From the NCBI RefSeq assembly GCF_014640335.1, contig NZ_BMGT01000002.1, positions 434,001-498,000 of the forward strand: a DNA stretch of 64,000 nt, read 5' to 3'. This document shows positions 1 to 24,621 of this stretch, piece by piece; position 1 is the first letter of the stretch, and each line of letters begins with the position of its first letter. Source of the DNA: Edaphobacter dinghuensis. GTDB taxonomy: Bacteria; Acidobacteriota; Terriglobia; Terriglobales; Acidobacteriaceae. Made by a program: the position numbers and the translations under genes. The notes under the pieces were generated by a model. It did no database searches, was not told where the DNA came from, and worked only from the letters and a program-made list of their open reading frames with translations.

Positions 1-2
1 CC

Positions 3-638
3 GCCGCACCCCAAGCCCCCTACGCAAACCTCACCCTCCTCTTCCTTCCCCCCGGCGACGGCTCCCTCGCCGACTCCATCCCCACCCTCGCCACCCTCCA
101 CAACCTCGGCATCAACATCTTCGCCTTCGACTACCGCGGCTACGGCCAAAGCGCCAACACCCATCCCACCCAGCAAAGAATGGCCCACGACGCCGACTCC
201 GCCTGGACCTACCTCACCACCTCAAGAGATGTCCCTACAAACCGCATCATCCCTTACGGCACCGGAGCCGGAGCATCCCTCGCAGCCTCGCTCGCAACAA
301 CGCACTCCACCATCCCAGCCCTCATCCTCGACTCGCCCCACACCGACCTGCTCGATACCGCTCGCCGCGATCCCCGCTCCAGCCTCTTGCCCGTGGCTCT
401 GCTCTTCCACGAAACCTTCCCGCTGACCGCCCCACTCCAAATCCTGCACACCCCCAAACTTCTCCTCAGCAAATCCAGTCAGTCCCCCGCAGCCTACCGC
501 ACCGCCGCTGACCCCAAAATCACCGTCGAATTCACCACCCCCACCGAAGCTGTCTACACACAAGCACTCACTCGCTTCCTTGACAAATACGCTCCCAACT
601 CGCAGCAGCTCGTACCTACCCCGGCACCCGCGCATTAA
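3..638 (+). CDS. alpha/beta-hydrolase-fold protein, 5' truncated, degenerate active site
   Basis: The reading frame is open from the first bases of the window, so the true start lies upstream; the ATG at 180 is internal. Upstream codons read a typical fold segment: a beta strand followed by PPGDG (oxyanion-loop position) and then AFDYRGYGQS, as in ABHD17/BAAT-like hydrolases. The nucleophile elbow expected as G-x-S-x-G reads G-T-G-A-G, so the catalytic Ser appears replaced by Gly. The C-terminal region also lacks an obvious GxHxx histidine. By family it would be a cytoplasmic or exported serine hydrolase, but this copy looks catalytically dead or altered. It lies 50 bp upstream of doxX on the same strand. 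The fold call is fairly safe; the substrate is unknown. Confidence 0.7.
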   Translation, partial: AAPQAPYANLTLLFLPPGDGSLADSIPTLATLHNLGINIFAFDYRGYGQSANTHPTQQRMAHDADSAWTYLTTSRDVPTNRIIPYGTGAGASLAASLATTHSTIPALILDSPHTDLLDTARRDPRSSLLPVALLFHETFPLTAPLQILHTPKLLLSKSSQSPAAYRTAADPKITVEFTTPTEAVYTQALTRFLDKYAPNSQQLVPTPAPAH

Positions 639-688
639 ATAACCCGCAACCTCTCACTCCGCCAAGCTACCTTAAAAGAAGAACCCTT

Positions 689-1087
689 ATGATCCGATTC
701 CTGAACAACCTTCAGCCCTGGGGAGCCCTGCTGCTGCGCCTCGTCCTCGCTCTCTCCATGATCGTCCACGGCTACCAGAAGGTCTCGACCCACGCCGCGC
801 TGCATCACTTCGTCCACTACGTCGTCACCCTCGGACTTCCCTATTGGCTCGGCTACATCTCGGCCTTCACCGAGTTCGTCGGCGGCATCCTCGTCCTCCT
901 CGGCCTCTTCACCCGGCTGGCCTCGGGACTCATCGCCATCAACATGCTGGTCGCGCTCTTCACCGTAGGAATCCACCAGGGCTTCGGCATCTACAACTAC
1001 ATCGCCGAGCTTGCCGCCATCGCCATCATGCTCTGCGTCTACGGCGCAGGAGCCCTCTCCCTAGACCGCAGACTAGGCCTCTCATAG
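689..1087 (+). CDS. DoxX family membrane protein
   Basis: This 132-residue protein has four predicted membrane segments (about residues 10-28, 45-75, 80-95 and 105-122). It carries features of the DoxX family: the LRLVLALSMIVHGYQK start, a GGILVLLGLFTRLASG core, and a short charged tail ending in SLDRRLGL. DoxX-like proteins are small inner-membrane proteins of poorly defined function linked to thiosulfate oxidation, quinone or redox stress complexes. The ATG is preceded by a purine-rich AAGAAGAA stretch at usable spacing. It could be co-transcribed with the hydrolase-like gene 50 bp upstream. It is followed by a 734-bp repeat-rich spacer. Confidence 0.85.
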   Translation: MIRFLNNLQPWGALLLRLVLALSMIVHGYQKVSTHAALHHFVHYVVTLGLPYWLGYISAFTEFVGGILVLLGLFTRLASGLIAINMLVALFTVGIHQGFGIYNYIAELAAIAIMLCVYGAGALSLDRRLGLS

Positions 1088-1140
1088 AAATTCCCACCAA
1101 ACCAAACACACGTCATCTCTCAAGCGCAGCATTCCACGAC

Positions 1141-1203
1141 ACGTCATCTCGACCGAAGCCGCGCAGCATCATCGCGCGGCGTAGTGGAGAGATCCCTGTA
1201 TTT
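1141..1203 (+). repeat. dispersed hairpin element, copy 1
   Basis: This copy has the constant left flank ACGTCATCTCGACCGAAG and a constant right flank close to GTGGAGAGACCCCTGTATTT (here with GATCCC). The centre can fold as CCGCGC/GCGCGG around a short loop. A partial left flank (CACGTCATCTC) also sits just upstream at about 1109-1119. Three more full copies lie at 1755, 3181 and 4899, all in the same orientation. It resembles a REP or miniature palindromic element. Confidence 0.8.
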
Positions 1204-1206
1204 CGT

Positions 1207-1419
1207 CTTCGTCTTTGCTTTTGCAATTGTCGTTGCCTTTGCACTTGCCTTTGCAGTTGCACTTGCCGTTGCCTTTGCAGTTGCACTTGCCGTTGCCTTT
1301 GCACTTGCCTTTGCACTTGCACTTGCCGTTGCCTTTGCAGTTGCACTTGCCGTTGCCTTTGCACTTGCCTTTGCACTTGCACTTGCCGTTGCCTTTGCAG
1401 TTGTCGTTGCCCTTGCCGC
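1207..1419. repeat. hexamer-based tandem array with exact 60-bp higher-order repeat
   Basis: The tract is built from variants of the hexamer TTGCMN (TTGCCT, TTGCAC, TTGCAG, TTGCCG). Bases 1261-1320 and 1321-1380 are identical, giving an exact 60-bp period. A third copy starts at 1381 and matches for 23 bases, and a degenerate copy precedes 1261. It begins directly after the CTGTATTT end of the dispersed element. Every frame is open with a dipeptide pattern, which explains several spurious hydrophobic or Q/R-rich reading frames here. I do not regard it as coding. Confidence 0.9.
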
Positions 1420-1427
1420 TAGGTACA

Positions 1428-1445
1428 GCGAGGCTTCAGCCTCGC
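1428..1445. repeat. short GC-rich hairpin, REP-like
   Basis: GCGAGGC and GCCTCGC form a perfect 7-bp stem around a TTCA tetraloop. More GC-rich inverted pieces (CCGC...GCGG, GGCCT...AGGCC) follow to about 1510. It looks like a second class of extragenic palindromic repeat next to the tandem array; no copy of it was seen elsewhere in the window. Confidence 0.5.
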
Positions 1446-1543
1446 GTCTAAAAAACCGCCGCGAAGCGGCCTCCGCTCTGCCGAAGGCCGGAGTGAAGGC
1501 GAAGCCGCAACGACAGATTCATTACCGAGCCCCAAAAGGAGTG

Positions 1544-1569
1544 AAGGCCCCCGATACTGTGGGGGCCTT
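1544..1569 (+). terminator. possible terminator-type hairpin
   Basis: AAGGCCCCC and GGGGGCCTT form a perfect 9-bp stem with an 8-base loop. No clear U-tract follows on the plus strand. It could end transcription from doxX or be another palindromic repeat. The rest of the spacer, 1570-1754, shows nothing I recognise. Confidence 0.35.
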
Positions 1570-1754
1570 ACGTTTACGGTAGGTATTTGCCTTGCGGATA
1601 AGGGAAGCCGGGACCGAGGGAACTGAAAGTCCGGCGACTGCTAACTACAATCAATAAGACGCCCCTTCAGCAAAAAAGTTGTCCTCATTTTCCACCATTT
1701 CGTAGGTTCATTTTTTTGATATCCCGAAAACAGAATAGCTATCCAAACAAACCC

Positions 1755-1804
1755 ACGTCATACCGACCGAAGCCGAAGGGCGTAGCGGAAAGACCCCTGT
1801 ATTT
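1755..1804 (+). repeat. dispersed hairpin element, copy 2
   Basis: Same element as at 1141 with slight divergence: ACGTCATACCGACCGAAG on the left and CGGAAAGACCCCTGTATTT on the right, with a short centre (GCCGAAGGGC) that can form a mini-hairpin. It is followed by TTTGCTT-type hexamers, like the start of the array after copy 1. It lies just beyond the stop of the DUF1501 gene. Confidence 0.8.
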
Positions 1805-1821
1805 GCCTTTGCTTCATCCGC

Positions 1822-3066
1822 CTAAATAAAATTCAAAAACTCTCGCGGCGCCACCTGCGACCCCGGAAACACCAGCTCCAGATTTTTTGCACCAAGCGTC
1901 TTATAAGCCGCCTCGCCCAGCACCCGGCGAAAGTCCGTCGTCACCGTCAAATCCCGTCCTTCATTCAACAGATCGTTATCCAGCCCCGGCCACTTCCCGT
2001 AGATCTTGCCACCCTTAACCTGTCCACCCAGCACGAACATTACATTTGCGTGACCATGATCGGTCCCGCCCGTCCCATTCTGCCTCGCCGTCCGGCCAAA
2101 CTCCGACATCGTCACCAGCGTCACATTCTCCGCCTCATCTCCCATGTCCTTCCAGAACGCCGCAATCCCCTCCGAAAAATCCGTCAACCGGTTCGCCAAC
2201 TGCCCATTCGCATCTCCCTGGTTCTGGTGCGTGTCCCATCCGCCAATGTCCGAAAACGCCGCCTCCACCCCAAGGTTCGCTTTCATCAACTGCGCCACCT
2301 GCTTCAAACTGTTGCCAAACTGCGTCTTCGGATACACCACTCCCGCCGCCGGCTGATAATGCGCCGGATCGGTCGCCTTCAGCATCTTCACCGCCTCGAA
2401 CGTCTCCTGCCCCGTGCCATGCAACACAGCATCCGAACTCTGGTCATACATCGACTGAAACGCATTGCTCATCGGCGAAGTCTGCAGCCCGCGTCCGCCC
2501 ACAGAGAAGTCCAGCACATTATCCAGTGCAATCGCCGGAACCTTGCCCTCCAGCGTCCGCGGAATCTCCGCACCCAGCGCCACCGCGCGAAACGCCGAAG
2601 GCTTCCCTCGCAGCAGCTCCGCCTGCAAAGCCCTATTCAGCCACCCATCAGGAGTAGACTTCACCCCCGGCGTCCCGCTCTCCATATAGTCCTGCGCATC
2701 GAAGTGCGACCGCGTGGTATCCGGCGAACCCGCCGCCGGAATAATCGCCAGATGCCCCTGGTCATACAGCGGCTTGAACGCCGCCATCGCCGGATGCAGC
2801 CCAAAGAACCCATCCAGATCGATCACCTCATTCGGCTTGATCGCAATCGTAGGCCGCATCGCATAGTAGTTCTGCTCGCGATACGGCACCACGATATTCA
2901 AACCATCTGCCGCACCACGCTGAAACAGCACCACCAGCTTCTTCTTATTCGCAGCGGCAGTCGTCATCTCCGCCATCACGCTGCGCGTCAAAAAACCAGG
3001 AATCGCCGAAGTCCCCACCAGCGCCAACGCGCCACCCTTCATAAAACCACGTCTGGTAATCTCCAT
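1822..3066 (-). CDS. DUF1501 domain protein with Tat signal
   Basis: This 414-residue protein begins with a twin-arginine signal (ITRRGFMKGGALALVG, cleavage probable after SVMA near residue 32), so it is predicted to be exported folded through Tat. The mature part carries DUF1501 hallmarks: VLFQRGAADGLNIVVPY, SHFDAQDYMESGTPG, GGWDTHQNQG and MSEFGRTARQNGTGGTDHGHAN, a sulfatase/phosphatase-like metal-site arrangement. Function is not established; family members are usually encoded next to DUF1800 proteins, as here, and have been suggested to act on extracellular polymers. It follows the DUF1800 gene on the same strand after a 196-bp gap that contains a dispersed repeat copy, so co-transcription is likely. 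Length is normal for the family. Confidence 0.9.
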   Translation of the reverse strand: MEITRRGFMKGGALALVGTSAIPGFLTRSVMAEMTTAAANKKKLVVLFQRGAADGLNIVVPYREQNYYAMRPTIAIKPNEVIDLDGFFGLHPAMAAFKPLYDQGHLAIIPAAGSPDTTRSHFDAQDYMESGTPGVKSTPDGWLNRALQAELLRGKPSAFRAVALGAEIPRTLEGKVPAIALDNVLDFSVGGRGLQTSPMSNAFQSMYDQSSDAVLHGTGQETFEAVKMLKATDPAHYQPAAGVVYPKTQFGNSLKQVAQLMKANLGVEAAFSDIGGWDTHQNQGDANGQLANRLTDFSEGIAAFWKDMGDEAENVTLVTMSEFGRTARQNGTGGTDHGHANVMFVLGGQVKGGKIYGKWPGLDNDLLNEGRDLTVTTDFRRVLGEAAYKTLGAKNLELVFPGSQVAPREFLNFI

Positions 3067-3180
3067 CTCGCGACTCCTTCCAACTCAAACCAACGCCGCA
3101 CCGATCAGCAGCCTACTATACCTAACTCCATCCCCGGCACGAAGTTTCGCAACTTCTGCCATGCCGCTCCATAAATGTGC

Positions 3181-3238
3181 ACGTCATCTCGACCGAAGGC
3201 GGCGCTTTTGCCGCCGCAGTGGAGAGACCCCTGTATTT
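3181..3238 (+). repeat. dispersed hairpin element, copy 3
   Basis: The left flank ACGTCATCTCGACCGAAG and right flank GTGGAGAGACCCCTGTATTT match the other copies almost exactly. The centre is GGCGGC-GCTTTT-GCCGCC, a perfect 6-bp hairpin unrelated in sequence to the centres of copies 1, 2 and 4. It lies in the gap between the DUF1800 and DUF1501 genes, so it would be in their shared transcript. Confidence 0.85.
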
Positions 3239-3262
3239 CACACCGCATTGGAGCGGCATCAC

Positions 3263-5467
3263 TTATCTCCGCTGAAAATCCGGCGACCCCAACAACAACC
3301 CCGCCATCCCCTCAGCCTCCCTGTCCTCCTGCTGCACCGAAGCCTTCACAACCCTCCCCGCCGGAAAAGCCGGAAAACTCTGCGCCGCAAACTGCTGCAA
3401 AACCGTATCCCGCGTATGCTCGCTCGCAGGCTGCTCCAGCAATATCGACTCCAGCCGCTGCTCTTTCGCCGCCACACTCTCCTCCGGCAACTGCGACTCA
3501 CCCAGCAACCCCCGCCAATCCGTCTGGACACCGCGCACATGATCGCCGCTCAAAGCCAGCGCGAAGTTCATCCGATCAACAAGGTCGCCCGTATTCACCC
3601 AGCCATCCGCCTTCCAGCTATATCCATTCGGAGTCTGCATCCCATACAGCGGCATCCCCAGCCGATTCAGCGCCGCCACCAGCGGCTGAGCATCCGTCAC
3701 CTCCGCCCCACTCGCCCGCACCGCCGACACCACAAACTCCACCGGCGTCTTCACCTTCGCCCTGTACACCTCAGGCGACCAGAACTCCGGCGAGTCGAAC
3801 ATCGTCCGCAGCACCACCTTGATATCGCCATGACTCTTCACAAACGCCTTCGCCATCCGGTCCACCAGCGCCGGAGGCGGCGTATCGCTCACAAACCGCA
3901 CCGCCAGTTGCGTCGAGATCAACCGCGCCGTCGCCGGACTCGTCGCCAGCATATGCAGCACCTCAAGCCCCTCAACCTCGCCATTTTCCCTGACCTTCTT
4001 CCCCAGCACCATCTTCGTGCCCGGCTCGTGCCGCCGCTCGTCGAACTTGTACACCGACCCCTCATCCGGTTTATCCACCGTCCATCCCGTCAGCGCCTTC
4101 GCCACCTCAATCACGTCCTGCTGCGTATACCCCTTGCCGCAAGCCTTATCCAGCCTCTTCGCCGAGCGGTCCGCGCTCACCTCGCACTGCACCCCAATCG
4201 TATGCAGCTCCATCAGCTCGCGCCCATAGTTCTCGTTCAGACCACGGTCCTTCAACGCCTGCTTTACCTGCGGATTCTTCGCCCGTTGCGCCGCCCGCGC
4301 CGCATTCTGGGCCGCCTGCGAATCCGGCCCAATGCTCAACCAGTTGTCCAGATACACCAGCATCGCCGGACTCTTCGCCGTCGCCACCAGCAGGTCTTCA
4401 AACTTCCCCAGCGCATGCGGTCGAATCACATCCCGCTCAAACGCAGGCAGCAGATAAGGCTCATTCTGGTTCTTCCGCAGATACACATTGAAGTGGTTCA
4501 GCCAGAAGTCCGTCATCACCGCCTGCAACTGCCGCTCGCTATAGATGTCCCGAATCATTCGCGACTGCAACAACTCCGCATCCACCATCTGCGGCCCACC
4601 CTGCAACGCCTCAAAGGTCTCCTTCTGCTCCGGACTCAACCCCTGCCGCGCCACCACAAGGTCTCCCGGCTTCAAGCTTTGGCGAAACGCCAGAAACTCC
4701 TCCGGCGATATCCCCACCATCCGCCGCATCCGCGCATCCGGCGGCAGATTCACCACCTTCAACGCATCGAGGTCCGCATACAGCTTCTCCTCCCGCGCCG
4801 CCGCCGCAGCCGCATCCATGTCCCCCGCCGACATTCCTCCAACACCCGTCTCGGAAGAAGACATCTTTGCCGCAGCCGAAGCCCCCTGCCCCAAACGCAC
4901 GTCATCTCGACCGGAGCGAAGCGCAGTGGAGAGACCCCTGTATTTCGCACTTCCCTCAGCCGCACCACCCCCACCCGCCTGCATCGCATTCCCCCCCGCA
5001 GCCGCAGCCTCCTGCTTCGCCTTTTGCGCCTCGATCCGCGCCATCTCATCTCCATAGATCGCGCGTTCCACCGGATCACCGGGCAATGGCGCTCCCGTCC
5101 GCATCATCTGCCGCAGCCGCTGCGGCGTCGGATACCGCTCCATCAGCTCCGTCTGCGAGATCCGCATCGCCGGAAACATCGCCAGCCGCGCATCGAGCGC
5201 CGAGTCGTCAATGCTCGAAGGATTCAACTGCTGCTCAAACCACCTCTTCAACCCCATCGCCTCAACCTGGGCCACCTCACCCGGCCTCGGCCCAAACGTA
5301 AATCGGTTCAAGGCATGAAGCACCTTCTCCTGCCCGTCGCTCTGCTTCTTCTCCGTCCGCACCCCCGCCGCCATCGGCTGACACGACACCAAACCCGCCA
5401 GCGCAAAAGCAGCAACACGGACCACCCCGCCCACAATGCCGTCAGCAGAGACTCGCACAGCCCTCAT
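3263..5467 (-). CDS. DUF1800 domain protein, probable lipoprotein
   Basis: The 734-residue product starts with a hydrophobic segment ending in GLVSCQ near residue 29, a plausible lipobox, so it is probably anchored in the envelope. The DUF1800 signature follows: HALNRFTFGPRPGEV near residue 51, later VMTDFWLNHFNVY, NYGRELMELHTIGV and LTGWTV. The molecular function is unknown. It is the upstream partner of the DUF1501 gene. Residues about 140-225 form an Ala/Gly/Ser-rich, low-complexity linker not expected in the core fold. Inside it, residues 175-190 are the reverse-strand translation of a dispersed repeat copy (4899-4945), which keeps the frame open. The start ATG at 5467 is the first that keeps the signal segment. 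Confidence 0.88.
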   Translation of the reverse strand: MRAVRVSADGIVGGVVRVAAFALAGLVSCQPMAAGVRTEKKQSDGQEKVLHALNRFTFGPRPGEVAQVEAMGLKRWFEQQLNPSSIDDSALDARLAMFPAMRISQTELMERYPTPQRLRQMMRTGAPLPGDPVERAIYGDEMARIEAQKAKQEAAAAGGNAMQAGGGGAAEGSAKYRGLSTALRSGRDDVRLGQGASAAAKMSSSETGVGGMSAGDMDAAAAAAREEKLYADLDALKVVNLPPDARMRRMVGISPEEFLAFRQSLKPGDLVVARQGLSPEQKETFEALQGGPQMVDAELLQSRMIRDIYSERQLQAVMTDFWLNHFNVYLRKNQNEPYLLPAFERDVIRPHALGKFEDLLVATAKSPAMLVYLDNWLSIGPDSQAAQNAARAAQRAKNPQVKQALKDRGLNENYGRELMELHTIGVQCEVSADRSAKRLDKACGKGYTQQDVIEVAKALTGWTVDKPDEGSVYKFDERRHEPGTKMVLGKKVRENGEVEGLEVLHMLATSPATARLISTQLAVRFVSDTPPPALVDRMAKAFVKSHGDIKVVLRTMFDSPEFWSPEVYRAKVKTPVEFVVSAVRASGAEVTDAQPLVAALNRLGMPLYGMQTPNGYSWKADGWVNTGDLVDRMNFALALSGDHVRGVQTDWRGLLGESQLPEESVAAKEQRLESILLEQPASEHTRDTVLQQFAAQSFPAFPAGRVVKASVQQEDREAEGMAGLLLGSPDFQRR
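4899..4945 (+). repeat. dispersed hairpin element, copy 4, inside a coding region
   Basis: ACGTCATCTCGACCGGAG, a short GCGAAGCGC centre and GTGGAGAGACCCCTGTATTT match the extragenic copies at 1141, 1755 and 3181. Here it lies within the minus-strand DUF1800 gene and is read in frame as residues 175-190 (KYRGLSTALRSGRDDV). The gene continues normally on both sides. Confidence 0.85.
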
Positions 5468-5673
5468 ATAACCTCCACATAGCTCTCTACAAACTCAGAC
5501 CCCCATCCTCCTCTTCCAGTTGCGCTTTGTCGCGAGTTAAATTCTGTCAAGCTACCACCCCTAATCAAACACATTAGGAAATACACGCAATCAGCACATA
5601 TAAAACAATTTGCAATCACACCGAAGATCTGCAAAACAGTTCCACCCAAATCACTACAATCAAACCAGCGACA

Positions 5674-5712
5674 GAAAAAACTTATGCCCAGCGCAGGTCG
5701 CTGGGCATAAGT
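5674..5712 (-). terminator. rho-independent terminator after the TonB-family gene
   Basis: ACTTATGCCCAGCG and CGCTGGGCATAAGT form a perfect 14-bp stem (5680-5712) with loop CAGGT. Read on the minus strand it is followed by six T residues. It lies about 80 bp beyond the stop of the TonB-family gene. The rest of the 322-bp gap 5468-5789 holds short direct repeats of AAGTCCTTTA; I see no supported gene in it. Confidence 0.85.
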
Positions 5713-5770
5713 CCTTTACAAAGAAGACTTTAGAAAATAAGTCCTTTAGATGCAAGACTTTGGACTAGAA

Positions 5771-5787
5771 GTACCCCAGGGGGGTAC
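5771..5787 (-). other. GTACCCC/GGGGTAC hairpin next to the tonB stop codon
   Basis: A perfect 7-bp stem with a 3-base loop lies 2 bp beyond the stop codon of the TonB-family gene. No T-run follows on the minus strand. It might protect the 3' end of the message or act with the stronger terminator downstream. Confidence 0.4.
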
Positions 5788-5789
5788 CC

Positions 5790-6866
5790 CTAGAAGATCT
5801 GGAAGTTGACCTCGACGTTCAGCTCCACAAGCACAGGCTTCCCGTTCTCCATCGCCGGTTTGAACTTGTACTGCTTCACCGCTTCAACCGCCTTCTCGTC
5901 CAGTCCCATGCCTACACCGCGAATCACATGCACATGGCTGGGAAGTCCGTTGGTATCGACCCAGAGATTCACCAGAACATTTCCGGCGACCTTCGCCTTG
6001 CGGGCCTCTTCTGAGAACTCCGGCTCAACCGAATAGATCAGCACCGGAGCCGAGACGCCACCGCCGATCCGTCGCGGGCCGCCGCCGGTATTGCCGCCCG
6101 AACCCGGCCCAAGTCCTGAGCCGTCGCCCGAACCCAGTCCGGTTCCGTGGCCGTTGCCCATCGACATGCCCACCAGCGGCGAGTTGGCAACGCCGATCTG
6201 CGGAATGCTGCTGGCCATGTGCACGTCCTTCTGCACCTCGATGGTCGGCGGAATGTTGATCTTCGGCTGCTCCAGCGGAGGAGCCTTCGGCGGAACAATC
6301 TGGGTCTCCGCAAATTTAGGCGGCGTTCCCTTCGTCACCGGAGTCGTGTCATGCTGGCCGCCGCCGCCGCCCATCGACTTAGCCTGGATCGGGGCCATGG
6401 GAGGAACATTAACCTCAGTCAACACTTGCTGCTTCACCGGAGCCGCAAACTTGATCTTCTTCGCCAGCAGAAAGGCGATCAGTAGAATCACCAGGCCGTG
6501 CAGCACCACCGCAATCGCCGTCGAGGTCGGGTCGCGCTTCACCTTCATGCGGTCGACCACGGCAATCGGCTTCGACTCAAGCTGCAACGGCGGCAGCTTC
6601 ACCGGGAAGAACACGTCGCGAATGCTGCTCCACAAAGAAGCGAAGGTGCCCTCTTCTTTAATAAGGAGGTCGCTCTCGACCGGCTTCGACTCAAGCTGCA
6701 GCGGCGCTTCCTTCTTCGTGCTGAAGGTATCGCGAAGATTTTCGAACAGCGAAGTCCACATCGACCCTTCGGTCTCCTCATTCAAATGAGGGGCCTCTGC
6801 AGGGCGTAGTTCCGGGGCCTCGTGCTCTGGTTCGTTTTCGTGCGGAATCATAGGTATATCAGCCAA
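5790..6866 (-). CDS. TonB-family energy transducer with duplicated N-terminal module
   Basis: The 358-residue protein has a single membrane segment at about residues 116-135. After it come a Pro-rich periplasmic stretch (VPPMAPIQ, IVPPKAPPLEQPKI), a Gly-rich tract at about 230-270, and a C-terminal TonB domain (VEPEFSEEARKAKVAGNVLV, VIRGVGMGLDEKAVEAVKQY, FKPAMENGKPV). TonB proteins couple the ExbB/ExbD proton motor to outer-membrane receptors; a TonB-dependent receptor lies at 58-62 kb. Unusually, about 115 cytoplasmic residues precede the membrane segment. They contain two copies of a 38-residue unit (36-63 and 74-101), each with an SL(F/W)xx(L/I)RDxF helix and the exact string PLQLESKP. No exbB/exbD genes are adjacent. 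Confidence 0.87.
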   Translation of the reverse strand: MADIPMIPHENEPEHEAPELRPAEAPHLNEETEGSMWTSLFENLRDTFSTKKEAPLQLESKPVESDLLIKEEGTFASLWSSIRDVFFPVKLPPLQLESKPIAVVDRMKVKRDPTSTAIAVVLHGLVILLIAFLLAKKIKFAAPVKQQVLTEVNVPPMAPIQAKSMGGGGGQHDTTPVTKGTPPKFAETQIVPPKAPPLEQPKINIPPTIEVQKDVHMASSIPQIGVANSPLVGMSMGNGHGTGLGSGDGSGLGPGSGGNTGGGPRRIGGGVSAPVLIYSVEPEFSEEARKAKVAGNVLVNLWVDTNGLPSHVHVIRGVGMGLDEKAVEAVKQYKFKPAMENGKPVLVELNVEVNFQIF

Positions 6867-7179
6867 ATTGTCTCGCCTCAGCCTGCAGGATCGTATGAGA
6901 ACCGTTCCACCGGCTTTTTTCGGAATTAGCGCGCATCATTCTCTTTATCTACGTTCCCGGTCTTCCGCCGGTTTTTTCTCCGCTACAACAGCAAGGCACT
7001 TGGCTTCACAAGCATTCTACAAACATTAATCCAATTTCGCTCGTTCCATTGGACGCACTTCCTGTGCGGAATGTCTCGCCCGCACCTCATCTGTAACCCC
7101 ACATCTCCGATTGCAGGCCGGATACAATAAGAGTTTGGCGCAAACCGAACATCTGTCTAACCGCGATCAAGAGGAACGA
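6867..7179. other. divergent intergenic region, tonB-like / ileS
   Basis: This 313-bp region separates the divergent TonB-family gene and ileS and must hold both promoters. I see two similar T-runs after CCGG (near 6918 and 6971) but no convincing hairpin, T-box leader or RNA gene. An in-frame TTG at 7111 could extend ileS upstream, but the ATG at 7180 has the better ribosome binding site. Confidence 0.4.
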
Positions 7180-10089
7180 ATGCCGGAAGTATCTGATTCA
7201 AAGCCCAAACTCGACCCATCCGTGAAGCCGCTCAAGTCTACCCTGAACCTTCCCGAGACCAGCTTCGCCATGAAGGCCAACCTGCCCGTCAACGAGCCCA
7301 TCCGCCTCGCCGAGTGGCAGAAACAGGACCTCTACGCCCAGATTCGCGCCGCCCGCGCCGGTTCGCCCAAATACATCCTCCACGACGGTCCGCCCTACGC
7401 CAACGGAGCCATTCACCTCGGCCACGCCCTCAACAAGTGCATCAAGGACTTCGTCGTCAAAACCAAGACGATGGCGGGCTTCGACTCCCCCTACGTTCCC
7501 GGTTGGGACTGCCACGGCCTCCCCATCGAAATCAAGGTAGATGAGCAGCTTGGCCGCAAAAAGCTGGAGATGGATCCTATCGCGGTCCGTAAAGCCTGCC
7601 GCGACTACGCGCAGAAATACGTCGATCTCCAGCGCAGCCAGTTCGAGCGCATCGGCGTCTTCGGCCGCTGGAACGATCCTTACCTCACGATGTCGTTTCC
7701 CTACGAAGCCAGCATCGCCGAGACCTTCTACGACTTCTTCGAGGCAGGCTTCGTCTACAAGGGCCTCAAGCCCGTCTACTGGTGCATCCACGACCGCACC
7801 GCGCTCGCCGAAGCCGAGGTCGAGTACGAGCAGCACAACTCGCCCAGCGTCTACGTCCGCTATCAACTCACCAGCGATCCAGCGGCCATCGACGCCAAAC
7901 TGGCAGGCAAAAAAGTCGCCACCATCATCTGGACAACGACTCCGTGGACGCTTCCTGCATCGCAAGCCGTCGCCTTCAACCCCGAGCTGGAATACGTCGC
8001 CCTCGAAAACTCCGACGGCAACGTATATGTAGTCCTCGAAGCTCTCGCAGCCGCAGTCAAAGCCGCCTGCAACCTCACCGAAGCCGTCGAGATCGCCCGA
8101 TTCAAGGGAGCGAAGCTCGACCGCGTCACCTTCCAGCACCCCTTTCTCGATCGCCAGATCCTCGGCGTCACCGCCGACTACGTCACCGCCGAACAAGGCA
8201 CCGGAGCCGTCCACACCGCGCCAGCCCACGGCGTCGACGACTTCTACACCGGCAAGCGCTACGACCTGCCCGAAGTGCAATATGTAGACAACGCAGGCAA
8301 GCAGCGCCACACCGAGCTGCACGGCGGTCATCCCGGCGAACCTTACGACGGCCTCACCGTCTTCAAGTCCAACCCGGTCATCATCGAGCTGCTGCGCGAA
8401 AAAGGGGCGCTCCTCAGCGCCACCAGCTTCGAGCACTCTTACCCGCACTGCTGGCGCTGCCACAATCCCGTCATTGTGCGCGCCACCGAGCAGTGGTTCA
8501 TCGGCATGGAGACGCCGATGTTCACACCCGAAGGCAACGAGACCACCTTCCGCCAGCGTGCCCTCGACGAGATCAAAAAAGTCGTCTGGGATCCATCATG
8601 GGGCGAAGACCGCATCTCCAACATGATCGCCACCCGGCCCGACTGGTGCATCTCGCGCCAGCGTATCTGGGGCGTGCCCATCGCTGTCTTCCTCTGCGAA
8701 AAGTGCCACACGCCGCTGAACGACAAGGCCATCAACAAGAGCATCGTTCAGCTCTTCCATAAAGAAGGCGCCGATGCCTGGTACACGCACGACGTCGCCG
8801 CGCTGCTTCCCAAAGGAACGAAGTGCGCCTGCGGCAACGAAGAGTTTCGCAAGGAGATGGACATCCTCGACGTATGGTTCGAGTCCGGCGCAAGCTGGCA
8901 CGCCGTCCTCGACATCGAGCCCGAGCTGCACTGGCCCGCCGACCTCTACACCGAAGGCGGCGACCAACACCGCGGCTGGTTCCACTCGTCCTTACTTACG
9001 TCCGTCGCTGTGCGCGGCAAAGCGCCGTACAAGATGGTCGCAACCTCCGGCTGGACGCTCGACGAACAAGGCCGTGCCTTTTCAAAGAGCCTCGGCAATG
9101 GCGTCGATCCCGTCGATATCGCCAAGCGCCTCGGCGGCGAGATCATCCGCCTCTGGGTCGCCTCCGTCGACTTCCGCGAAGACGTCGCCGCCAGCGAAAA
9201 CCTGATGCAGCGCGTCAGCGACAACTACCGCAAGCTACGCAACACGCTGCGCTTCCTGCTCGGCAACCTGCATGACTTCGACCCAGCAACAAACACCATC
9301 GCGTTTTCTGCGATGGAGCCTTTAGATCAGTACATCCTCGCCCGCACCGCGGAACTCGACACCAAGATCCGCGCCGCCTATGACGACTTCGAGTTCCACC
9401 GCGCCTACCACGCGCTCAACGAGTACGTGAACACCGACCTCAGCGCGCTCTACCTCGACGTACTGAAAGACCGCCTCTACACCTTCGCACCCAACCATCC
9501 CGCTCGCCGCAGCGCACAGACCGCACTGTGGCGCATCGCCGAAGCCCTCACCCGCCTCATCGCACCGATCCTCAGCTTCACCGCCGACGAGGTCTGGCAG
9601 CTTCTACCCAAAGTCGAAGGCCGCGAGACCAGCGTCCACGTCGCGCTCTTCCCCAACATCGCCGACATCGTTCCCGGCAACGTCAAACTCCTTGAAGAGG
9701 ACTGGGAAAAGCTGCTTGCAGTCCGCGACACCGTGCTCATCTCGCTCGAAGCCGCCCGCCGCGACAAACTCGTCGGCAAAGGACTCGATGCCAAGGTACA
9801 GATCGAGGCCAGCGAACCTCTACTCACACTTCTGAAGAAGTACGAGCCCAGCCTCAAGGAACTCTTCAACACCTCGCAGGTAGAACTCGCTCACATCGAG
9901 CACGCCGATCTGCAGCCGCGCGTCACCACTGTTGCAGCCGACGGCATTAAGTGCGAGCGCTGCTGGAACTACACCACCGACGTAGGCAACGATGCTCGCT
10001 ACCCCACCGTCTGCCTCCGTTGTGCCGAGGCCCTCGAAGCCATCCACTACGCCCCCTACACAGTTCAAAAAACGGAGCAGCAAGCCTAA
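7180..10089 (+). CDS. ileS: isoleucyl-tRNA synthetase
   Basis: The enzyme charges tRNA-Ile with isoleucine in the cytoplasm and edits valine. I chose ATG 7180 because AAGAGGAA lies 5 bases upstream; a TTG at 7111 is in frame but lacks such a site. The 969-residue product has the class Ia signature PPYANGAIHLGHALNK (HIGH motif), the editing domain (TTPWTLPASQAVAF, GTGAVHTAPAHG), the WISRQRIWG-type segment (here CISRQRIWGVPIA), and the KMSKS loop in the variant form AFSKSLGNGVDP. A C-terminal zinc-binding knuckle (CERCWNY...CLRCAEAL) marks the bacterial type. The stop codon abuts the lspA start directly, a common ileS-lspA operon. Confidence 0.97.
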   Translation: MPEVSDSKPKLDPSVKPLKSTLNLPETSFAMKANLPVNEPIRLAEWQKQDLYAQIRAARAGSPKYILHDGPPYANGAIHLGHALNKCIKDFVVKTKTMAGFDSPYVPGWDCHGLPIEIKVDEQLGRKKLEMDPIAVRKACRDYAQKYVDLQRSQFERIGVFGRWNDPYLTMSFPYEASIAETFYDFFEAGFVYKGLKPVYWCIHDRTALAEAEVEYEQHNSPSVYVRYQLTSDPAAIDAKLAGKKVATIIWTTTPWTLPASQAVAFNPELEYVALENSDGNVYVVLEALAAAVKAACNLTEAVEIARFKGAKLDRVTFQHPFLDRQILGVTADYVTAEQGTGAVHTAPAHGVDDFYTGKRYDLPEVQYVDNAGKQRHTELHGGHPGEPYDGLTVFKSNPVIIELLREKGALLSATSFEHSYPHCWRCHNPVIVRATEQWFIGMETPMFTPEGNETTFRQRALDEIKKVVWDPSWGEDRISNMIATRPDWCISRQRIWGVPIAVFLCEKCHTPLNDKAINKSIVQLFHKEGADAWYTHDVAALLPKGTKCACGNEEFRKEMDILDVWFESGASWHAVLDIEPELHWPADLYTEGGDQHRGWFHSSLLTSVAVRGKAPYKMVATSGWTLDEQGRAFSKSLGNGVDPVDIAKRLGGEIIRLWVASVDFREDVAASENLMQRVSDNYRKLRNTLRFLLGNLHDFDPATNTIAFSAMEPLDQYILARTAELDTKIRAAYDDFEFHRAYHALNEYVNTDLSALYLDVLKDRLYTFAPNHPARRSAQTALWRIAEALTRLIAPILSFTADEVWQLLPKVEGRETSVHVALFPNIADIVPGNVKLLEEDWEKLLAVRDTVLISLEAARRDKLVGKGLDAKVQIEASEPLLTLLKKYEPSLKELFNTSQVELAHIEHADLQPRVTTVAADGIKCERCWNYTTDVGNDARYPTVCLRCAEALEAIHYAPYTVQKTEQQA

Positions 10090-24373: not shown

Positions 24374-24420
24374 AGCACCTCTGACCAAGGCTCCTGCAAA
24401 ATATTCATTCCATGATTGTT

Positions 24421-24439
24421 ACGCTTCGGTCGAGATGAC
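24421..24439 (-). repeat. truncated copy of the dispersed element
   Basis: On the minus strand this reads GTCATCTCGACCGAAGCGT, the left flank of the element found at 1141, 1755, 3181 and 4899, without the right flank. It lies in the kdsD-proS gap in the opposite orientation to the other copies. The rest of that 248-bp gap shows nothing else recognisable. Confidence 0.6.
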
Positions 24440-24621
24440 CTGAGTTGAGGAGCGCAAGAGCAGGCGAACTTAGGGTCGGAGATGCAGTTATAAAAGTCGA
24501 CAATGCCTATCTGATCCGACTCGACCTGTGCTCGTTTAGCCGAAGGCACCGCAGCATTTAGAATGAACATTCATCTCTAAAAGTCCGTGCATCTCGATGC
24601 AACGGACAGGAAAGTGCTCTT

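Follow-up and report, generated by a model that had tools for sequence, protein, structure and literature searches.

Results

The window analysed here is a 64,000-nucleotide stretch (G000:C2:434001-498000) of the Edaphobacter dinghuensis genome (4.54 Mb, nine contigs) and contains, on its minus strand, a DUF1501 gene at positions 1822-3066 (ORF, PF07394) and its DUF1800 partner at 3263-5467, which encodes 734 amino acids (ORF, codon map, PF08811). Within the DUF1800 gene, on the plus strand at 4888-4954, lies a full-length, 67-nt copy of a dispersed REP-like element (87.3 bits to the covariance model of the family), with its 34-nt conserved core, GTCATCTCGACCGGAGCGAAGCGCAGTGGAGAGA, at 4901-4934 matching the family pattern exactly. 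A first-pass annotation had proposed that a repeat copy resides in this coding sequence without disturbing the frame, and this is borne out by the exact core match, the unbroken ORF, and a Pfam search in which PF08811 (DUF1800) matches residues 51-733 (1.8e-135) and runs across the insert. Residues 175-190, to which the copy had been assigned, correspond to the inner part of the translation; according to the codon map, the full extent is residues 172-194 (GSAKYRGLSTALRSGRDDVRLGQ), encoded on the strand opposite to that of the element. The linker around the insert is Ala/Gly/Ser-rich, as had been stated and as both ORF translation and codon map confirm, whereas the element-encoded peptide is Arg-rich; five of the six reading frames of this copy are open. 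In an AlphaFold2 model based on a 29-sequence alignment (mean pLDDT 74.6), residues 162-219 (4811-4984, minus strand) form a predicted disordered loop (pLDDT < 50) flanked by helices 132-158 and 218-239. The nearest named relatives of the protein are from Edaphobacter and Granulicella, in a search from which the E. dinghuensis genome itself was possibly left out.

Three more copies on the plus strand were located nearby with the covariance model. The second, at 3170-3247 (G000:C2:437170-437247), occupies the gap between the two genes (3067-3262), where a copy had been announced; the third, at 1744-1813 (G000:C2:435744-435813), lies directly downstream of the DUF1501 gene, and the fourth is at 1130-1212 (G000:C2:435130-435212). 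Around the gene pair, seven copies, all on the plus strand, fall within ~9 kb (window 1130-4954 and G000:C2:429668-433647), and a partial copy (model positions 5-33) is found on the minus strand at 24420-24448. The interval separating the DUF1800 gene from its next neighbour contains, at 5675-5717, a terminator-like inverted repeat (19-nt arms, 89% complementary, 5-nt loop) that adjoins a 30-nt tandem repeat at 5707-5766. Comparison of window positions 1-8000 with Rfam gave no match at 4888-4954 and three sub-threshold matches elsewhere; one of these three, to rli117, overlapping the copy at 1130-1212 (E 0.1, 20.4 bits versus a gathering score of 87) was taken as chance.

At the scale of the genome, the core GTCATCTCGACCGnAGCGnnGCGnAGTGGAGAGA has 57 copies at up to three mismatches, compared with 0 for the reversed control, and a 36-nt version of the core matches the window once at this threshold, in the DUF1800 gene, compared with 0 in 100 shuffles. 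The covariance model, which comprises 67 positions and was built from 30 copies, identifies at least 150 genome copies, all with E ≤ 0.01 (best 150 of 3910 initial candidates); because all 150 candidates scored passed this limit, the true copy number may be higher. The DUF1800 copy ranks 7th among these best 150 matches, many of which exceed the model length (69 to 111 nt), and in the alignment of the 57 copies conservation extends from ~12 nt before to ~18 nt after the core. An Ala/Gly/Ser-rich linker that is hypervariable among orthologs might come to resemble a repeat by chance or convergence, but the 87.3-bit score, the absence of shuffle matches, and the empty reversed-pattern control refute this explanation, which we regard as having practically no probability. 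Within the set of 57 copies, which was found via the core pattern and is thus biased toward canonical copies, the DUF1800 copy differs from the consensus at 2 of 61 positions (median of the set, 7), is second in the mismatch-sorted list (ties possible), and shares an identical core with 2 of the 56 other exact-length copies; being near consensus, it looks as a young insertion should.

One end of the element carries CGTC (C, G, T, and C in 57, 55, 57, and 57 of the 57 copies), and a 4-bp stem (positions 5-8/31-34) is backed by two-sided substitutions in other genomes (C7-G32 in place of T7-A32, and T6-A33 in place of C6-G33), found alongside one-sided stem changes in a search whose limit of two mismatches shapes the variants seen. 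RNAalifold places 11 pairs in a different register. The layout of CGTC-tagged REPs, with an unpaired tag, an 8-9-bp stem starting from a complementary A-T pair, and a 4-5-nt loop, is not that of this element. The first A is pairable in 12 of the 57 copies (T at position 35), and position 35 (C in 44, T in 12, A in 1), directly after the stem, is followed by CCC where CGTC REPs have a CCA-like tail. The copy in the DUF1800 gene had been described as a mobile palindrome; the dispersed family agrees with the first half of this description, but a stable single-strand DNA fold was rejected for this copy, its predicted fold being no more stable than those of its shuffles (z = 0.33), and the term palindrome is therefore weak.

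The stretches surrounding the listed copies amount to 457 kb, 78% of which lies in predicted ORFs, and contain 181 matches, including 36 partial matches that were excluded and 145 full-length copies. Most full-length copies (126 of 145) lie outside predicted ORFs of at least 120 codons; of the remainder, 12 overlap a stop-to-stop ORF at its 5' end and 7 are contained in an ORF. Four of these 7 lie at a distance of 46-151 nt from the ORF start, which probably places them before the true start codon; like the 12 ORF-end copies, they are on the 5' side of ORFs defined from stop to stop and were therefore not called internal. This leaves three copies well inside genes, those in DUF1800, MutS2, and PolX, and all three are in frame. 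With 78% coding sequence, ~113 internal copies would be expected under random placement, so that the three observed indicate that genes are strongly avoided or purged, in an ORF-based count by which genes disrupted by a copy are hard to detect. One suspected interrupted gene (C2:67002) appears by eye to be two different proteins. Coding frames were assigned with a codon-usage model seeded with six known genes, which favours the sense frame on those same six; a model trained on the longest ORFs favoured antisense frames and was replaced. Adjacent copies share their strand in 110 of 140 pairs, a level reached in none of 10000 within-contig shuffles, the proportion being 50 of 55 for pairs <3 kb apart and falling to 5 of 12 for those ≥100 kb apart. 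Copy strand is unrelated to gene strand (75 of 145), and local copying was rejected as the source of the strand runs, near pairs being no more similar than far ones (0.789 versus 0.786).

Across the genus, the core (up to two mismatches) is present in 38 of 62 genomes, with 0 to 104 copies per genome, and across the class in 28 of 299, all of one family (28 of 74 inside, 0 of 225 outside). GTAG REPs and REPINs are associated with a RAYT transposase that is flanked by the repeat. The E. dinghuensis genome encodes three RAYT-like PF01797 genes; no copy was found within ~1.5 kb of any of these three loci, and copy number and PF01797 gene count are uncorrelated over the 62 genomes (Spearman 0.10, p 0.45), so that a RAYT/Y1 transposase was rejected as the mobilising partner.

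The DUF1800 ORF was sought in 135 loci and found in 132, giving 106 distinct ORFs that include that of E. dinghuensis, as well as some paralogs or ORFs cut by contig ends. The element was matched in the E. dinghuensis ORF only (1 of 106; best other E 0.15); in line with the interpretation of the first-pass annotation, it is absent from the 105 other distinct ORFs, and among the 106 no case appeared of the same residues occurring across genera without the repeat DNA. The linker is hypervariable among orthologs, and in the 30 that have both anchor motifs (75 of the 106 lacked one anchor and were excluded) its length ranges from 42 to 136 residues with a median of 88.5, compared with 109 in E. 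dinghuensis or 87 minus the element's 22. Because 7 of the 30 have linkers of at least 109 residues free of the element, length supports a clean addition but is no proof of it. The nearest ortholog, from G022, is 84% identical over residues 212-734 and 69% over 5-167, and its linker is shorter and very different, so that exact boundaries and net length of the insertion are not readable from it. Because 67 nt is not a multiple of three, extra bases must have been gained or lost. The data examined showed no pair of empty and filled sites inside one species. The DUF1800 linkers of G008 and G034 (L044 and L047) show Arg-containing inserts, VRIERRGGESSAPG and APIERRVPQ, possibly other in-frame repeats.

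MutS2 of E. dinghuensis (TIGR01069, 9.2e-206) also carries an in-frame copy, translated as AKYRGLSTSLRFGRDDV in the same frame as the DUF1800 copy. The site is the linker between the CxRPxF and ELSLtAARHPLLE motifs and falls in an unaligned stretch between residues 296 and 326 of the best solved MutS2 chain, 8qpp_W, which we take to be B. subtilis MutS2. The protein was sought in 25 relatives and found in 24, G009 giving only a weak MutS-like match. The element occurs in the same frame in G077, which has two further partial copies; long insertions are present at this linker in G025, G032, G002, G023, G036, and G079, and the linker is short in the other 17 relatives, G072 being intermediate. 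For example, G022 MutS2, which is 91% identical over residues 359-848, has a short site without insertion. The G025 insertion, on the other hand, contains GTCATTCTGAGCGCAGCGAAGAACCC, a repeat different from the E. dinghuensis element, with 33 matches (up to three mismatches) in the G025 genome, one of them inside MutS2. Repeat-like cores were recognised by eye at the MutS2 linker of G002, G023, G032, and G036. In G077 (L254), ~33-nt head-to-tail partial units enlarge the insert in frame, and such units, like those in the PolX linker of G064, resemble half copies upstream of some intergenic copies.

The third internal copy is in PolX (PRK08609, 3.7e-144), where it is in frame but read in another frame than the DUF1800 and MutS2 copies; the loop is equivalent to residues 398-408 in the solved PolX structure 3au2, presumably that of T. 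thermophilus. Element-derived sequence is present in 5 of 26 PolX proteins, those of E. dinghuensis and four of the 25 relatives (G028, G064, G013, and G065), and is altered and longer in G013 and G065. In the G064 linker (L231), the insert is extended in frame by two additional 48-nt half units arranged head to tail. G022 and G077 PolX lack the element although they are closer to the E. dinghuensis protein (95-96% over residues 1-409), and the history of this site therefore includes loss, transfer, or repeated gain. Among E. dinghuensis, G028, and G064, the only three compared in this respect (G013 and G065 were left out), the 44-nt element is 91-98% identical and the 93 nt directly upstream 62-68%. 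Judged from sequence, selection on the peptide would account for this pattern less well than renewal through new insertion or gene conversion, or than a recent gain.

Discussion

Our results make it likely that the feature in the DUF1800 gene arose when a non-autonomous, CGTC-tagged, ~67-nt REP-like element inserted recently and in frame into a tolerant loop. The distribution of copies points to a mobile element, and a plausible course is that this short repeat inserts into genes, that most intragenic copies are probably purged, and that the survivors would be those that keep the frame, with a net length that is a multiple of three, and are located in flexible linkers. In the E. dinghuensis genome this process would also account for the in-frame copies of MutS2 and PolX, and in a related species for at least one other repeat that occupies the same site of MutS2. 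Given the MutS2 and PolX copies, the DUF1800 case is not singular. The DUF1800 peptide is predicted to be translated, and it appears to be neutral, tolerated rather than used.

The first-pass annotation went further and called the element domesticated, which would imply recruitment of the inserted peptide and its maintenance by selection for DUF1800 protein function. The intact frame and an Arg-rich peptide unlike the surrounding linker would fit such a role, and the presence of the PolX element in E. dinghuensis, G028, and G064, and in altered form in G013 and G065, suggests that some intragenic copies may persist. The DUF1800 copy, however, occurs in one of the 106 distinct ORFs, its DNA is near consensus (2/61), and it lies in a predicted disordered loop, whereas the greater conservation of the PolX element than of its upstream linker fits renewal at the DNA level or recency better than peptide-level selection alone. 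We therefore did not retain the term and consider recruitment very unlikely; because the copy was seen in one species only, selection on the peptide is not measurable.

Another explanation, which we judge unlikely, is that an enzyme or recombination places or rewrites the intragenic copies by directed insertion or gene conversion, with a preference for repair-gene linkers. This would be in agreement with the MutS2 linker, which contains the element in E. dinghuensis and G077 and another dispersed repeat in G025, with four more species appearing repeat-derived there by eye, and with the PolX element, which differs less between species than the sequence beside it; according to the available passages of PMC3733652, DNA synthesis and repair genes are likewise a common location of published REP insertions. 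The same pattern is expected, however, if insertions are simply best tolerated in the MutS2 and PolX linkers; the DUF1800 gene does not belong to the repair genes, and the insertions of relatives were examined in the three already-hit genes only. It is also conceivable, although rather doubtful, that the MutS2 and PolX linkers are standing landing sites in the genus, at which repeated in-frame insertions of REP-like elements of several types may be kept near their family consensus by copy exchange, and of which the DUF1800 copy would be a young example. If this were true, MutS2 and PolX would carry species-specific, fast-changing loops of mobile DNA. MutS2 and PolX now offer both occupied and empty sites among related species for direct comparison. 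On the reading that we favour, a recent insertion into a tolerant loop, the apparent peptide motifs RGLSTxLRxGRDDV, SSRPERSxVERP, and VISTxAxRSGETPVF are translations of repeats and not domains.

Such repeats in Acidobacteria have no description that we found in the openly licensed literature, as judged by titles, abstract beginnings, or passages, including the accessible parts of PMC12306157 and PMC3174227. With GTAG REPs and REPINs, the element has in common a small hairpin repeat, a high copy number, and RAYT-like genes (PF01797) in the genome; unlike these, it shows no GTAG tag in the 57-copy consensus, no copy beside the three RAYT-like genes, and no correlation with their number over 62 genomes. 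It is closer in appearance to the CGTC-tagged REPs, which in the available passages of Di Nocera et al. (2013, PMC3733652) lack a dedicated transposase and occur inside ORFs of several species, many of them DNA synthesis and repair genes, with two in-ORF families equated with RPE-4 and RPE-6; the single mention of Acidobacteria in these passages concerns another transposase class. The likeness extends to the CGTC end, a short hairpin repeat, a high copy number, a mostly intergenic location, the lack of a linked transposase (here for the PF01797 loci examined), and the presence of some copies in ORFs. The acidobacterial element, on the other hand, is longer than the CGTC-tagged REPs described in those passages; its 3' arm (CCCCTGTATTT) is long and conserved, and the changes seen in other genomes favour a 4-bp outer stem over the described 8-9-bp stem and 4-5-nt loop.

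The Rickettsia RPE (Ogata et al. 2000/2002) are, in the accessible passages of PMC10969869 and PMC2229807, ~105-150 bp long, in frame in unrelated protein genes and nearly half inside ORFs, with guanylate kinase as the tested product case. As with RPE, the present repeat is dispersed and occurs in frame inside conserved protein genes, most orthologs of which are without it, but it differs in its length of 67 nt, in having 3 of 145 copies well inside genes, and in being known here from sequence alone. In-frame REP/RPE insertions, frequently in genes of DNA repair, have been described before in Rickettsia and other bacteria. The DUF1800 copy adds a case from the Acidobacteriota, a phylum with named isolates, to a class of in-frame coding repeats for which Rickettsia has been the best-known example.
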